Positions 7,988 through 16,110 of a stretch of DNA of 64,000 nt are shown here, piece after piece; position 1 is the stretch's first letter; each line of letters opens with the position of its first letter. The notes beneath the pieces were generated by a model. It worked only from the letters and a program-made list of their open reading frames with translations. It was not told where the DNA came from and ran no database searches. The position numbers and the translations under genes are program-made. The DNA is from Sphingopyxis sp. TUF1 (GTDB lineage: Bacteria > Pseudomonadota > Alphaproteobacteria > Sphingomonadales > Sphingomonadaceae), in contig NZ_CP144683.1 in NCBI RefSeq assembly GCF_036687315.1, positions 3,170,001-3,234,000 of the forward strand, read 5' to 3'.

Positions 7988-8021
7988 CAGTTAAACGTCC
8001 CGCATCGGGACGGCGCTGCCG

Positions 8022-8036
8022 TTAACGATCTTTTAA
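8022..8036. promoter_or_regulatory. CtrA-type binding box (TTAA-N7-TTAA)
   Basis: An exact TTAA, seven bases, TTAA(CC) lies 39 bases before the small gene at 8075, and a further GTTAAC follows at 8049-8054. This is the full-site consensus of the alphaproteobacterial cell-cycle regulator CtrA. The AT-rich patch stands out in GC-rich surroundings. Binding by CtrA is inference from the motif alone. Confidence 0.6.
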
Positions 8037-8074
8037 CCTTACCGACTCGTTAACATGGGCCTAGCCTTGGGTGC

Positions 8075-12451: not shown

Positions 12452-12561
12452 GGGGGCCACGCCTATCATGCGCAGCCGGGCCGGAACAAGCGATGCTTGC
12501 CAAAGCCGCGGGCCGCCATAATAGGTTGAACCGTGCATTTCTTGCTGCCCCTTGCCCGCCT

Positions 12562-13773
12562 ATGGCCCTGATCGCGCTCGTCGGCGCCAGCGAGACCCTG
12601 TCCGACGGCGGCTTACGCGCGCTCGTCACCGTCGCGGGCGAAACGCTGATCGAGCGGCAGGCGGCGCGCCTTGCCGACGTTGGGGTCACGCACATCGCCG
12701 TCGCGGTCGCCGCGGTGCCGGCCGACCTGCTCGCCGTGTGCGACCGGATTCGTAGCCGGGGATTGAAAGTGACGCCGGTGCGCGCGGCGAGCGACCTTGT
12801 GCCGCTGGTCGAGGCCGATGATCAGATCCTGCTGGTCGCCGATGGCCTGCGCGCCGGGGGAACGCATTATGCCGCGATCGCGAAGCCGGGCTCGCCAGCG
12901 ATCCTCGTGACCGGCGACACCGTGCTGACGCAGGGGTTCGAGCGGATCGACGCGACGCGGCGCTGGGGCGGGCTGGCTTCGGTTTCGCAGCCGATGGTCG
13001 CCGAGCTCGCCGCGATGCCCGGCGAATGGGACATGATGCTCACCTTGCTGCGGCTTGCCGTGCAGGCGGGCGCACGGCGGCTCTATTGCGAGCCGGCGCT
13101 GTTCGAACAGGGCGAGATTGCGATCGTTGCCGATCGCCCGACCGCGGTGCTGATCGAGCAATCGAGTCTGCAGAGGGTCGAGTATGGCGGCATGGGGCTG
13201 GGGCGCTCGGCGATCATGATGCCGCTGGTGCGGCTCGCCGGACCGCTGCTCGTCAAATCGCCGAATACGGCGCGTTTCCTGCCGCATGTCACCGCGTTGC
13301 TGTGGCTGGGGGTCGCTTTGCTGGCTGCCAGCGGATTGGCGGCGGCGGGCACGCTTGCCGCGATCTTGGGCGGGCTCGGGCTCGCGGCGATGCGTTTCCT
13401 GGCGGCGTTTCGCGCCGAAAGTGCGGCGCAGGATCGCGCGCGCGCGGTCATCCGCGGTTTTGCGCTCGTCCTGCTTGCCGGTTTCCCGTGGCTGCTGGCG
13501 CTCGGTGCGGGCCGCGCGATACCGTCTTTTGCAGAGGCCGCGCTAGCGCCGTGCCTCGCTGCGGCGATCCTGCTTGCACGAGCCCTGTACGAAGATCTGG
13601 GCGCTCGGCGGCGGTTCCACTGGCTCCTTCCCGACGCCGATCAGGCATGGATCATGCTGGCGCCCGCATTGCTGATCGGGGTCGCGCCGCTGATGTTCGC
13701 GATCCTGCCACTGCTCGCACTGTTCCAGAATCTGCTCTGGCTCCGCCTCGCGCGGCGGCCTGAGGCCCAGTAA
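12562..13773 (+). CDS. Nucleotidyltransferase-like domain fused to a multi-helix membrane domain
   Basis: A 403-residue protein of unknown function. Residues 1 to about 225 look like a MobA/sugar-nucleotidyltransferase fold (A-L-V-T-V-A-G-E-T-L-I-E-R-Q-A-A-R-L, then I-L-L-V-A-D-G), but the Gly-rich NTP loop is degenerate (V-G-A-S-E-T-L). From about residue 245 on there are four or more hydrophobic helices. The order resembles the bifunctional CTP:inositol-phosphate cytidylyltransferase / CDP-alcohol phosphatidyltransferase fusions, including a pre-membrane L-L-V-K-S-P-N-T. The diagnostic D-G-x-x-A-R...D motif of the transferase half is absent. It is therefore probably a diverged, perhaps non-catalytic relative. 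The ATG giving M-A-L-I-A-L-V-G is preferred over the longer frame from 12493. Confidence 0.7.
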   Translation: MALIALVGASETLSDGGLRALVTVAGETLIERQAARLADVGVTHIAVAVAAVPADLLAVCDRIRSRGLKVTPVRAASDLVPLVEADDQILLVADGLRAGGTHYAAIAKPGSPAILVTGDTVLTQGFERIDATRRWGGLASVSQPMVAELAAMPGEWDMMLTLLRLAVQAGARRLYCEPALFEQGEIAIVADRPTAVLIEQSSLQRVEYGGMGLGRSAIMMPLVRLAGPLLVKSPNTARFLPHVTALLWLGVALLAASGLAAAGTLAAILGGLGLAAMRFLAAFRAESAAQDRARAVIRGFALVLLAGFPWLLALGAGRAIPSFAEAALAPCLAAAILLARALYEDLGARRRFHWLLPDADQAWIMLAPALLIGVAPLMFAILPLLALFQNLLWLRLARRPEAQ

Positions 13774-13791
13774 AACAACGTCCTTCAAGGT

Positions 13792-13805
13792 TTAAGGCCT
13801 ATTAA
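13792..13805. promoter_or_regulatory. CtrA-like half-site pair with 6-base spacing
   Basis: TTAA, GGCCTA, TTAA(C) lies 27 bases before the start of the next gene. The half-sites match CtrA, but the spacer is six bases instead of seven, so this is a weak candidate. It is the only AT-rich block in the gap 13774-13831 and could equally be part of an ordinary promoter. Confidence 0.3.
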
Positions 13806-13831
13806 CGCCAAGCTGCTATTGGCGGGTGCGC

Positions 13832-14743
13832 ATGAGTGAACCGCTCTCCTTTCCTGGCGTCGAACCGCCGTCACCGACGCTGTCCGCGCGCCTGGGCGAA
13901 CTGGCGGACTATTTTGCCGCGCCCGCCGCGGGGCGGCTGACCGAGGAACAGCGCGCGCTTTCGCTGGGAATCGCGCGGCGGCTGGTCGCAGAGGTGGCGG
14001 AACTGATCGATCCAGCGGTCGATTTCGGCGGACTGTGGACCGAATGGCTGCGCAGCGGAGTGCCGGGCGCCGCGCGGCTTGCCGGCATCTGCTTCGGGCG
14101 GGCTGAGGAGCATCGCTGGCGGGCGCTGTCAGCCGAGCGAGCAATTCCGGTCCCGCTGGCCCCCGAGTCCGATGAAGAAGATGCGGCGACCGAGGTGGCC
14201 GGCCCGATGACGGCGCGCGACCGCGCCTATCTGGCATTGCGCATCGCCGACCGGCGGCGTTTCGACGCCTATGGGCAGCCGAAGCTGGCGGTCGCCGACC
14301 TCGACAGCGAGATTTTCCGCGCGCTCCTCCACGATGTCGCGGGCTGGCAGCTGGCCGCGGTCAGTATCGATACCGGCCGCGCGGCGGATCTGGGCGATGC
14401 TGTGCGCAAGGCTGTCGAGCGGCAGTCCGAGGCGCCAGGGATGACCGCGGCGGCGATAGCCTATCATGACGCCGTGGAGGACGCGCTGCCGGACGCCGCG
14501 CGCGCAGCCATTGCCGCGCATGACTGGCCGGCGCTGATTGCGCTGGCCGCGGCGGCGCAGCGACGAGGCTATGCCGATACGGCGCTGGCGCTCGTCACCG
14601 CCGAGACCGCTGCGCTGCCGTCGCTGCTTGCCCCGCTGAGGCTCGACCGCGATGCGCTCGCGCCGCTCGAGGCGTCGCTGGCGATGCTGCCGGCGCGGGC
14701 GGTGAGCGATAGTCACGGCTTTGCTGGGGAGGCAGGGCGATGA
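13832..14743 (+). CDS. Unknown helical protein, translationally coupled to a kinase-like protein
   Basis: A 303-residue protein with no motif I recognise. It is Ala/Arg/Glu-rich, predicted almost wholly helical, without signal peptide or membrane segments. It shows loose repeats of the type L-x-x-A-x-x-x-A, including a run of short helices near residues 200-290 (A-I-A-A-H-D-W-P-A-L-I-A-L-A). A HEAT-like or DUF2336-like helical array is possible but not demonstrated. Its stop overlaps the ATG of the following kinase-like gene, so the two are almost certainly made together and may interact. ATG 13832 is preferred to GTG 13826. A CtrA-like box precedes it. Confidence 0.75.
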   Translation: MSEPLSFPGVEPPSPTLSARLGELADYFAAPAAGRLTEEQRALSLGIARRLVAEVAELIDPAVDFGGLWTEWLRSGVPGAARLAGICFGRAEEHRWRALSAERAIPVPLAPESDEEDAATEVAGPMTARDRAYLALRIADRRRFDAYGQPKLAVADLDSEIFRALLHDVAGWQLAAVSIDTGRAADLGDAVRKAVERQSEAPGMTAAAIAYHDAVEDALPDAARAAIAAHDWPALIALAAAAQRRGYADTALALVTAETAALPSLLAPLRLDRDALAPLEASLAMLPARAVSDSHGFAGEAGR

Positions 14744-16110
14744 ACGATCGCGTCATCCGCGGCCGTGTCGATCAGTCGGGCGCGCTGGTGAGCGCAGATG
14801 CGCCGCTGCTGCGGCTGCAACAGCGCGCCGGGGCAGGGCTCGGCAAGCCGATCGCGCTGCCGCACCTCGCGCGGCTCGTCGCGCTGTCGCAGCGATTGCT
14901 TCGCGACATCAGCCGGCCGCTTTATGCCGCCGACGACCATAGCGACATCCACGCGCTGGTGCGGATCACGCCCGATGCCGAGGGCGCGAGCATCGAGATC
15001 AGCGACTGGCGCGCGCGCGCGGTGACGCCGCCGCACATTCCGCCGGTCGCCGACGAGACGACCCTCATCGACGGATGGTCGTGGGAATGCGATCCGCAGT
15101 TGCGCCTCGTCGCGCTCCGCGCAGCGGGGAACGGCCCCGGGGTGCCGGCGGGATGGGAAGGGCGGTCGTTGTCCGAGCTTTTCGAACTGCAACCCGACGC
15201 TGACGGACGTTTTCCGGTGCTGCGCGCGCTTGCACAGCAATCGCGTTTCGATGGCCAGACGGTTAGCGCGGCCGGCGCAACGATGATCCTTTCGGGCGAG
15301 GCGCTGTTCGATGCGGCGGGCCGCTTCACGGGGTTTCGTGGTTTTGCTGCCATCACCGACGCGGCGCCCGTCGCCGTGCCCAAGGCTGCGGCCGCGCTGG
15401 CCGATCCCGCTTTCGGATCGCTGCCACTGTCCGATCCGAAGTTCGGGCGCCGGATCGACGGGGCGCTGCGCGGGCCGCTCAGCCGCATCATCGCCACGGC
15501 GGAGACGATCTCCGGCCAGCTCGACGGGCCGATTCGCGCCGATTACGCGCGCTACGCCGGCGATATTGCCCATGCGGGGCGGCACCTGCTGGGATTGGTC
15601 GACGATCTTGCCGATCTTCAGAATATCGAACGGCCCGGGTTCAAGGCGGCGCGCGACGACATTGATCTCGGCGATCTGGCCCGCCGTGCGGTCGGGTTGC
15701 TCGGCATGAAGGCCGAGGAAAAGGGGATTCGCATATCGGCGCCGAGCACCGACGACCGGATGCCCGCCACCGGCGAGTTCCGCCGCGTGCTTCAGGTGCT
15801 GCTCAACCTGCTCGGCAATGCGATCCGCTATTCGCCTGATGATTCGCAGATATGGATCCGCGTCGATCGCGAGGGCGACCGCGCGATGGTCACCGTCGCC
15901 GATCAGGGGCAGGGGATCGACGCCGGGCAACAGGCGAAGGTGTTTGAAAAATTCGAGCGGCTGGGGCGCACCGACAGCGGCGGATCGGGGCTCGGCCTTT
16001 ATATCGCCCGGCGCCTTGCGCGCGCGATGGACGGCGACCTGACGGTGGACAGCGCGCCGGGGCAGGGGGCACGCTTCAAGCTGAGCCTGCCGGCGCGGGA
16101 CGAGGGGTAG
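14740..16110 (+). CDS. Histidine-kinase-like protein lacking the phosphoacceptor histidine
   Basis: A 456-residue cytosolic protein: an N-terminal PAS-like sensor region (about 1-220), a dimerisation/phosphoacceptor-like helical pair (about 235-290) and a full HATPase_c domain (about 340-452). The ATPase motifs are intact: N-L-L-G-N-A with Asn 360, D-Q-G-Q-G-I-D, and G-S-G-L-G-L-Y-I-A. In the H-box, where kinases read S-H-E-L-R-T-P-L, this protein reads D-G-A-L-R-G-P-L: the histidine is replaced by Gly 241 and the following Glu by Ala. It can thus bind ATP but probably cannot autophosphorylate in the usual way, as in DivL-like signalling pseudokinases. No response regulator is adjacent; the partner is the overlapping upstream gene. 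Confidence 0.8.
   Translation: MNDRVIRGRVDQSGALVSADAPLLRLQQRAGAGLGKPIALPHLARLVALSQRLLRDISRPLYAADDHSDIHALVRITPDAEGASIEISDWRARAVTPPHIPPVADETTLIDGWSWECDPQLRLVALRAAGNGPGVPAGWEGRSLSELFELQPDADGRFPVLRALAQQSRFDGQTVSAAGATMILSGEALFDAAGRFTGFRGFAAITDAAPVAVPKAAAALADPAFGSLPLSDPKFGRRIDGALRGPLSRIIATAETISGQLDGPIRADYARYAGDIAHAGRHLLGLVDDLADLQNIERPGFKAARDDIDLGDLARRAVGLLGMKAEEKGIRISAPSTDDRMPATGEFRRVLQVLLNLLGNAIRYSPDDSQIWIRVDREGDRAMVTVADQGQGIDAGQQAKVFEKFERLGRTDSGGSGLGLYIARRLARAMDGDLTVDSAPGQGARFKLSLPARDEG

Follow-up and report, generated by a model that had tools for sequence, protein, structure and literature searches.

A sphingomonad histidine kinase-like protein that appears to have lost its phospho-acceptor once, kept its ATP site and travels with a putative DUF2336 partner

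What does a protein built as a histidine kinase do when the histidine that should carry the phosphate is absent? The question is raised by two adjacent genes of Sphingopyxis sp. TUF1, whose genome is a single contig of 3.47 Mb. We analysed them within a stretch of 64,000 nucleotides (the window), and all coordinates below are counted from its first letter.

13791..13806, + strand: CtrA-type box TTTAAGGCCTATTAAC, one mismatch to TTAA-N7-TTAAC
13832..14743, + strand: P0001, putative DUF2336-related helical protein, 303 amino acids (ATG start; profile chain; AF2 model)
14740..14743, + strand: ATGA, in which the P0001 stop overlaps the P0002 start (sequence reading)
14740..16110, + strand: P0002, His-less PAS-PAS-DHp-CA pseudo-histidine kinase, 456 amino acids (Pfam, alignment, tree, AF2 model)
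14755..15021, + strand: N-terminal PAS-like domain, P0002 residues 6-94 (AF2 model, named by eye)
15073..15354, + strand: second PAS-like domain, residues 112-205 (AF2 model, named by eye)
15355..15435, + strand: linker, residues 206-232 (pLDDT mostly below 50)
15436..15630, + strand: DHp helical hairpin, residues 233-297 (AF2 model, Foldseek, alignment)
15460..15462, + strand: Gly241 codon, the phospho-acceptor position (alignment)
15655..16095, + strand: CA (ATP-binding) domain, residues 306-452, with N, G1, F and G2 boxes (HATPase_c, alignment)

A sequence-only reading of this DNA had described a coupled pair with no response regulator beside it, and this description holds. Both frames are open and share the ATGA, and P0001 has an alternative GTG start 6 bases upstream of its ATG. 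A stop-start overlap of 1-8 bases recurs in 56 of 57 Sphingopyxis loci, as counted by hand with start codons picked by a script. The pair is flanked by genes for an SDR, a nucleotidyltransferase-like protein and a Crp/Fnr regulator, and then comes a CTP synthase gene, named by eye. The nucleotidyltransferase-like protein (12493-13773) has an N-terminal NTP_transf_3 match that is weak and under its cut-off, and a hydrophobic C-terminal half; in seven family loci a relative of it precedes the kinase, and no DUF2336 gene was found between the two. Our literature searches, with few subscription journals in their coverage, turned up no description of such a pair.

Using Pfam, we found a HATPase_c match of 100.7 bits in P0002 (cut-off 26.4; residues 348-453), while HisKA stayed under its cut-off (21.1 versus 26.9) with a match that begins only at profile position 13. 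Measured against a canonical HisKA kinase, P0002 has the HATPase_c domain with boxes that we take to be N, G1, F and G2, and lacks the phospho-acceptor histidine. The AF2 model (mean pLDDT 84.6; pTM 0.49, so that the relative placement of domains is unreliable) has two PAS-like domains followed, after a linker of low confidence, by a DHp hairpin and a CA domain. P0002 itself had no PAS match in the Pfam search, and PAS_4 was above cut-off in the matching part of two His-bearing relatives (L194 and L199). Foldseek matches to the kinase core include HK853, DivL and RetS.

Residues 240-247 of P0002 read DGALRGPL, which confirms the glycine that had been noticed in place of the histidine. Alignment of orthologues at this position, the check proposed at the time, covered 108 distinct sequences; none of the 107 with a letter at position 241 has His (G 60, P 21, A 9, R 7, K 4, Q 4, N 1 and V 1). 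Among 20 further family loci, 17 lack His, two (L215 and L216) carry MSHELRTPLNAIIGF and one (L233) has His in a degenerate box. An alignment re-check of 24 family genomes added four His-less loci (L328, L330, L331 and L336) and five with a full His box (L332, L333, L334, L335 and L337). In total, His is absent from 128 of 136 family loci, a count that includes L219, whose kinase core repeats that of L155, and excludes L329, a repeat of L215; as many of the loci are close relatives, these are not independent events. Seven of the eight exceptions carry a complete SHELRTPL box; in the eighth, the histidine is present but the motif is not. The L233 histidine (G083, a genome of ~2.1 Mb) sits in an HSFKPSI box without the Glu and Thr, and this kinase nests among the His-less ones. 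Outside the family, the best P0002 relative has the full His box in all 20 loci from other families of the order. Orthologues with His had been named by the sequence-only reading as evidence against itself. In part this applies, as relatives with His do exist, both in those 20 loci and in the seven family loci, but they place the loss in a lineage and do not give P0002 the function.

A phylogenetic tree was constructed from 103 kinases with the H-box columns excluded, L233 counted as His-less, DivL and 16 near-copies omitted and L335 cut. The 62 His-less rows make up one side of one branch (support 100/87), and the split was present in 100% of 200 bootstrap trees, with His-bearing relatives surrounding it. 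On the basis of this arrangement, the loss of His in the kinase family looks like a single event, and it appears to date to the ancestor of the sphingomonads or of most Sphingomonadaceae. L337, which has His, branches beside the His-less side, and the order near the point of loss is unsure because L214, L336, L330 and L337 are long rows. An earlier tree of 113 rows contained one further change, that of DivL (L180), on a distant long branch of unsure place. The linker that joins the second PAS domain to the H-box is shorter in kinases without the histidine: its median length is 27 residues (22-40) across 62 His-less rows and 54 (18-54) across 25 His-bearing rows. It is already short in L215 and L337, which both keep the histidine, as if linker loss came before His loss.

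We compared conservation between 70 His-less rows (from which L180, L214, L217, L230 and L233 were omitted) and 22 His-bearing rows, using weighted and rounded values. Fourteen positions are at ≥0.95 in the His group and <0.6 in the His-less group. Five of these, S240, H241, E242, T245 and N248, stand at 1.0 in the His-bearing rows: H241 is the acceptor, E242 and T245 are the H-box Glu and Thr, which serve phosphatase chemistry, and S240 and N248 are neighbours of these. The other nine lie in the input helix (three) and elsewhere in the DHp and CA parts, so relaxation is not confined to catalysis. Arg249 is new and near-fixed in the His-less rows (0.96, versus Ala at 1.0 in the His group). Ten residues, which we take to belong to the ATP boxes, are at 1.0 in both groups: N356, N360, D388, G390, G392, F402, F405, G415, G417 and G419. 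The claim that the ATP-binding boxes are intact was thus well founded, and P0002 would be expected to bind ATP.

The partner had been described as helical with no recognised domain. Neither Pfam nor NCBIfam gives a match to P0001 at E ≤ 1, PF10098 was not matched anywhere in its own genome, and its AF2 model (mean pLDDT 86.1) is nearly all helix; this part of the description stands. The absence of a domain does not; it marks how far Pfam can reach, since a chain of profile comparisons identifies P0001 as a strongly diverged relative of DUF2336, a relationship that rests on these steps: the Sphingopyxis group matches the Sphingomonas-type group (96%, 1.3e-9) and the latter matches the order-level group (100%, 1.8e-50). 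Compared directly, the Sphingopyxis and order-level groups match weakly (15%, 0.0017). Among 10 upstream family proteins, six, all of the Sphingomonas type, match DUF2336, four of them above the PF10098 cut-off; two Erythrobacter/Novosphingobium-type and two Sphingopyxis proteins do not. All nine others examined, seven from the order level together with L214 and L215, pass the cut-off (180-241 bits). A sequence search recovered P0001 in 34 of 36 genus genomes (own included) and in 0 of 24 genomes from other families of the order, whose relatives have diverged beyond the reach of that search.

A DUF2336-type gene lies upstream of the kinase in 58 of 58 assessable Sphingopyxis loci and in 67 of 75 assessable loci from the rest of the family (seven His-bearing). 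Some of these same proteins went into the profiles behind the counts; of the 25 loci that did not contribute, 23 match. Linkage of the two genes, predicted to be conserved, therefore is. The remaining eight family loci keep the kinase without an upstream DUF2336 gene, so the partner is not strictly needed. At the order level a DUF2336 gene adjoins the His-bearing kinase in 19 of 20 loci, the last (L196) ending with its contig; 13 of these 20 loci contributed to the profile used. In the class outside the order, it is directly upstream in 9 of 30 kinase loci fetched; DUF2336 was found in 96 of 190 class genomes and so has other contexts too.

The nearest His-bearing relatives of P0002 are DUF2336-linked PAS kinases with a SHELRTPLNAIIGF box from other families of the order, including Paremcibacter and Govanella. 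They share the gene order of P0001 and P0002 but retain the His, Glu and Thr and in most cases have a long input linker; they are presumably active kinases. Five of these loci (L199, L202, L204, L205 and L206) have a second DUF2336 gene downstream of the kinase on the opposite strand, with NAD-kinase-like and, in some, MoaA-like genes in between, and flagellar-looking genes adjoin in L205 and L209 (all by eye). The literature searched made no use of the word DUF2336.

A pair of CtrA-like half-sites had also been noted upstream. The excerpted text of PMC8921679 gives the full CtrA site as TTAA(N7)TTAA, and TTAA half-sites are indeed present at 13791-13806 and conserved in relatives. Scanning from -120 to +60 around the start of the first gene for sites with at most one mismatch to TTAA-N7-TTAAC, with seven loci lacking an upstream DUF2336 gene omitted, we found the box in 56 of 57 Sphingopyxis loci and in 14 of 20, 20 of 21 and 13 of 19 loci of the other family groups. 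Dinucleotide shuffles of the same four groups gave means of 0.28, 0.08, 0.08 and 0.24 (largest 3, 2, 1 and 1). As a control, the site occurs in 218 of 11,978 180-base windows of these loci (1.8%; both strands, promoter windows included). In the rows listed, the distance from the box to the start downstream is mostly 27 to 41 bases, and the half that matches exactly is usually TTAAC. We also looked at the seven loci without DUF2336 and at L085 and L336: a one-mismatch site lies close to where the kinase's open frame begins in eight of these nine, the exception being L336, which has none. Of 18 His-bearing order-level loci, 9 have the box (shuffle mean 0.78), at positions that vary from locus to locus. 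Across the whole window, counted per strand, there are five matches with no more than one mismatch, of which the pair's promoter accounts for two; 0.65 are expected, and 1 of 100 shuffles reached as high a count. Elsewhere in it, at 8021-8054, an exact TTAA-N7-TTAAC site overlaps another on the opposite strand, and a third site there has one mismatch. CtrA probably drives transcription of the pair, judging by this box; the TTAAC half could instead be part of a -35 element.

The sequence-only reading had the pair working in the manner of DivL, and here our data point elsewhere. DivL resembles P0002 in being an alphaproteobacterial protein with PAS domains and a HisKA-type DHp/CA core without the acceptor His. 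However, the TUF1 genome has its own DivL-like protein (L193:3747-6101; 785 residues, SYELRTPL, with tsaE next downstream), whose best solved match is DivL (4q20, 9.4e-32), and a DivK-like single-domain regulator (3.6e-38 to solved DivK). A CckA-like protein is also present by eye. P0002 matches solved DivL at 6.5e-17, rank 16. We therefore rejected P0002 as a DivL orthologue: the genome has a separate DivL, and the 113-row tree parts the two, with DivL on a long branch.

P0002 might nevertheless act as a second DivL, in which ATP plays no part and the DHp face docks phosphorylated DivK and relays its state to CckA. The genome does encode DivK- and DivL-like proteins. In the portion of PMC4211667 available, changes at DivL R553, T557, Y562 and H579 lower DivK~P binding; the R553 equivalent, Arg244, is conserved at 0.98 in the P0002 family, and several helix-2 residues (Y269, Y272, D275, I276, H282 and D289) are kept. 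Against this, the equivalents of T557 and Y562, mapped by offset from the acceptor, are changed (H579 could not be mapped), as is the docking face in the His-less rows more widely: H+7 from N to A/G/D/S, H+8 from A to R (0.96), H+11 from G to A (0.88) and H+12 from F to N (0.72). In addition, DivL binds TNP-ATP weakly (57 uM) and its CA domain is dispensable, according to the same portion of PMC4211667, while the P0002 ATP site is fixed. In our alignment, the genome's own DivL keeps the Glu, Thr and Phe of the H-box region and departs at several ATP-site columns. Conservation is thus near the reverse of DivL's: DivL keeps the H-box Glu/Thr and the docking face and binds ATP weakly, whereas the P0002 family has lost the H-box chemistry and kept the ATP site, with an adjoining DUF2336 gene in a separate neighbourhood. 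The pair's own link to CtrA is through the promoter box only. Accordingly, we consider a second DivL unlikely. P0002 is a second pseudokinase in a genome with a separate DivL and DivK, built almost oppositely to DivL.

By eye, none of the genome's 28 HATPase_c matches is a second kinase with a SHELRTPLNAIIGF-type box, and the L165 kinase (SHELRTPLAAILGY) looks PhoR-type. A PhoQ/PhoP-like pair seemingly occurs twice (L174/L175 and L243/L244, at ~6-8 kb and 3.439-3.441 Mb; by eye), with regulators identical letter for letter. In the excerpts of the literature available, the DivJ-PleC-DivK system of Sphingomonadales is described as degenerate or lost, with DivK or PleC in several organisms (PMC2877005), and the Caulobacter hybrid kinase CCNA_03265 as lacking the conserved His (PMC11481889).

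Could the intact CA domain instead phosphorylate another protein, either a heterodimer partner kinase or some other substrate? The ten fixed ATP-site residues would suit such phosphotransfer in trans. RetS of Pseudomonas, a kinase-like regulator that acts through binding another kinase, is among the structural matches to the DHp/CA core, a likeness of fold that carries no claim of orthology. However, no candidate acceptor was found. The DUF2336 partner has an EEHR motif, but as its histidine occurs in only 26 of 39 aligned rows it is no universal acceptor, and we regard transfer in trans as improbable. An ordinary kinase phosphorylated elsewhere in its own chain is far less plausible: helix-2 His282 is found in 61 of 62 His-less rows, but all 25 His-bearing relatives compared have it too, so it did not arise as a replacement, and the H-box Glu and Thr are lost too.

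P0002 was found in all 36 genus genomes (own included), with relatives 53-94% identical, and 31 of the 36 best matches have no internal stop. In the family, at least 153 of 199 genomes have a relative at E ≤ 1e-45, a lower bound as 8 candidates were scored per genome. Matches were partial and confined to the kinase end in 14 of the 24 re-checked family genomes, which may lack the gene. Broken or partial kinases occur in a few records: L120, G027 (split across two contigs) and L137 of Sphingopyxis sp. PET50, where a kinase frame of 187 aa and an upstream frame of 116 aa reflect either a broken gene or a sequencing error. The relaxed H-box, these broken copies and the 14 genomes without a full-length match could suggest a functionless gene in decay, but its presence throughout the genus, mostly free of stops, with fixed ATP residues and a conserved overlap and promoter box, makes this highly improbable.

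We therefore return to a kinase that keeps its ATP pocket and has lost its histidine, a combination from which P0002 probably signals by shape change and not by phosphate transfer. The P0002 line would descend from an ordinary histidine kinase, which in the ancestor of most Sphingomonadaceae would have lost the acceptor His and the neighbouring Glu/Thr; the input linker would have shortened, and the ATP pocket would have remained strongly constrained. The shape of the DHp/CA dimer might then depend on PAS input and nucleotide state, and the dimer would hold or release the co-translated DUF2336 partner. The target, reached through this partner or directly, may be a kinase or regulator of the CckA-DivL-DivK-CtrA network. 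If CtrA drives transcription of the pair, the pair would be a feedback branch. Osp of Rhodobacter sphaeroides, which the available part of PMC9430884 presents as a two-component-type protein activated by CtrA that feeds back on CckA, offers a precedent for this role, although Osp is a single-domain response regulator and P0002 is kinase-type. Taken as a whole, an inherited, co-translated two-gene signalling module under CtrA control, whose kinase works without phosphotransfer as an ATP-loaded conformational switch or scaffold, is the best explanation of these sequence patterns, and we give it about an even chance of being right.

More tentatively still, DUF2336 and a PAS kinase may be an old alphaproteobacterial pair, in which the sphingomonad kinase, by a single loss of phosphotransfer, became a CtrA-controlled, ATP-dependent conformational regulator. 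It would represent a second class of pseudokinase, found in one cell together with DivL, that has kept its ATP site in place of the docking face and has a DUF2336 output. For DUF2336, the pair supplies a conserved signalling neighbour. Because the loss of histidine kinase chemistry appears to have a single origin, and close relatives that have the histidine share the gene order, the pair lends itself to the direct question of what use a kinase fold still makes of ATP after losing phosphotransfer.
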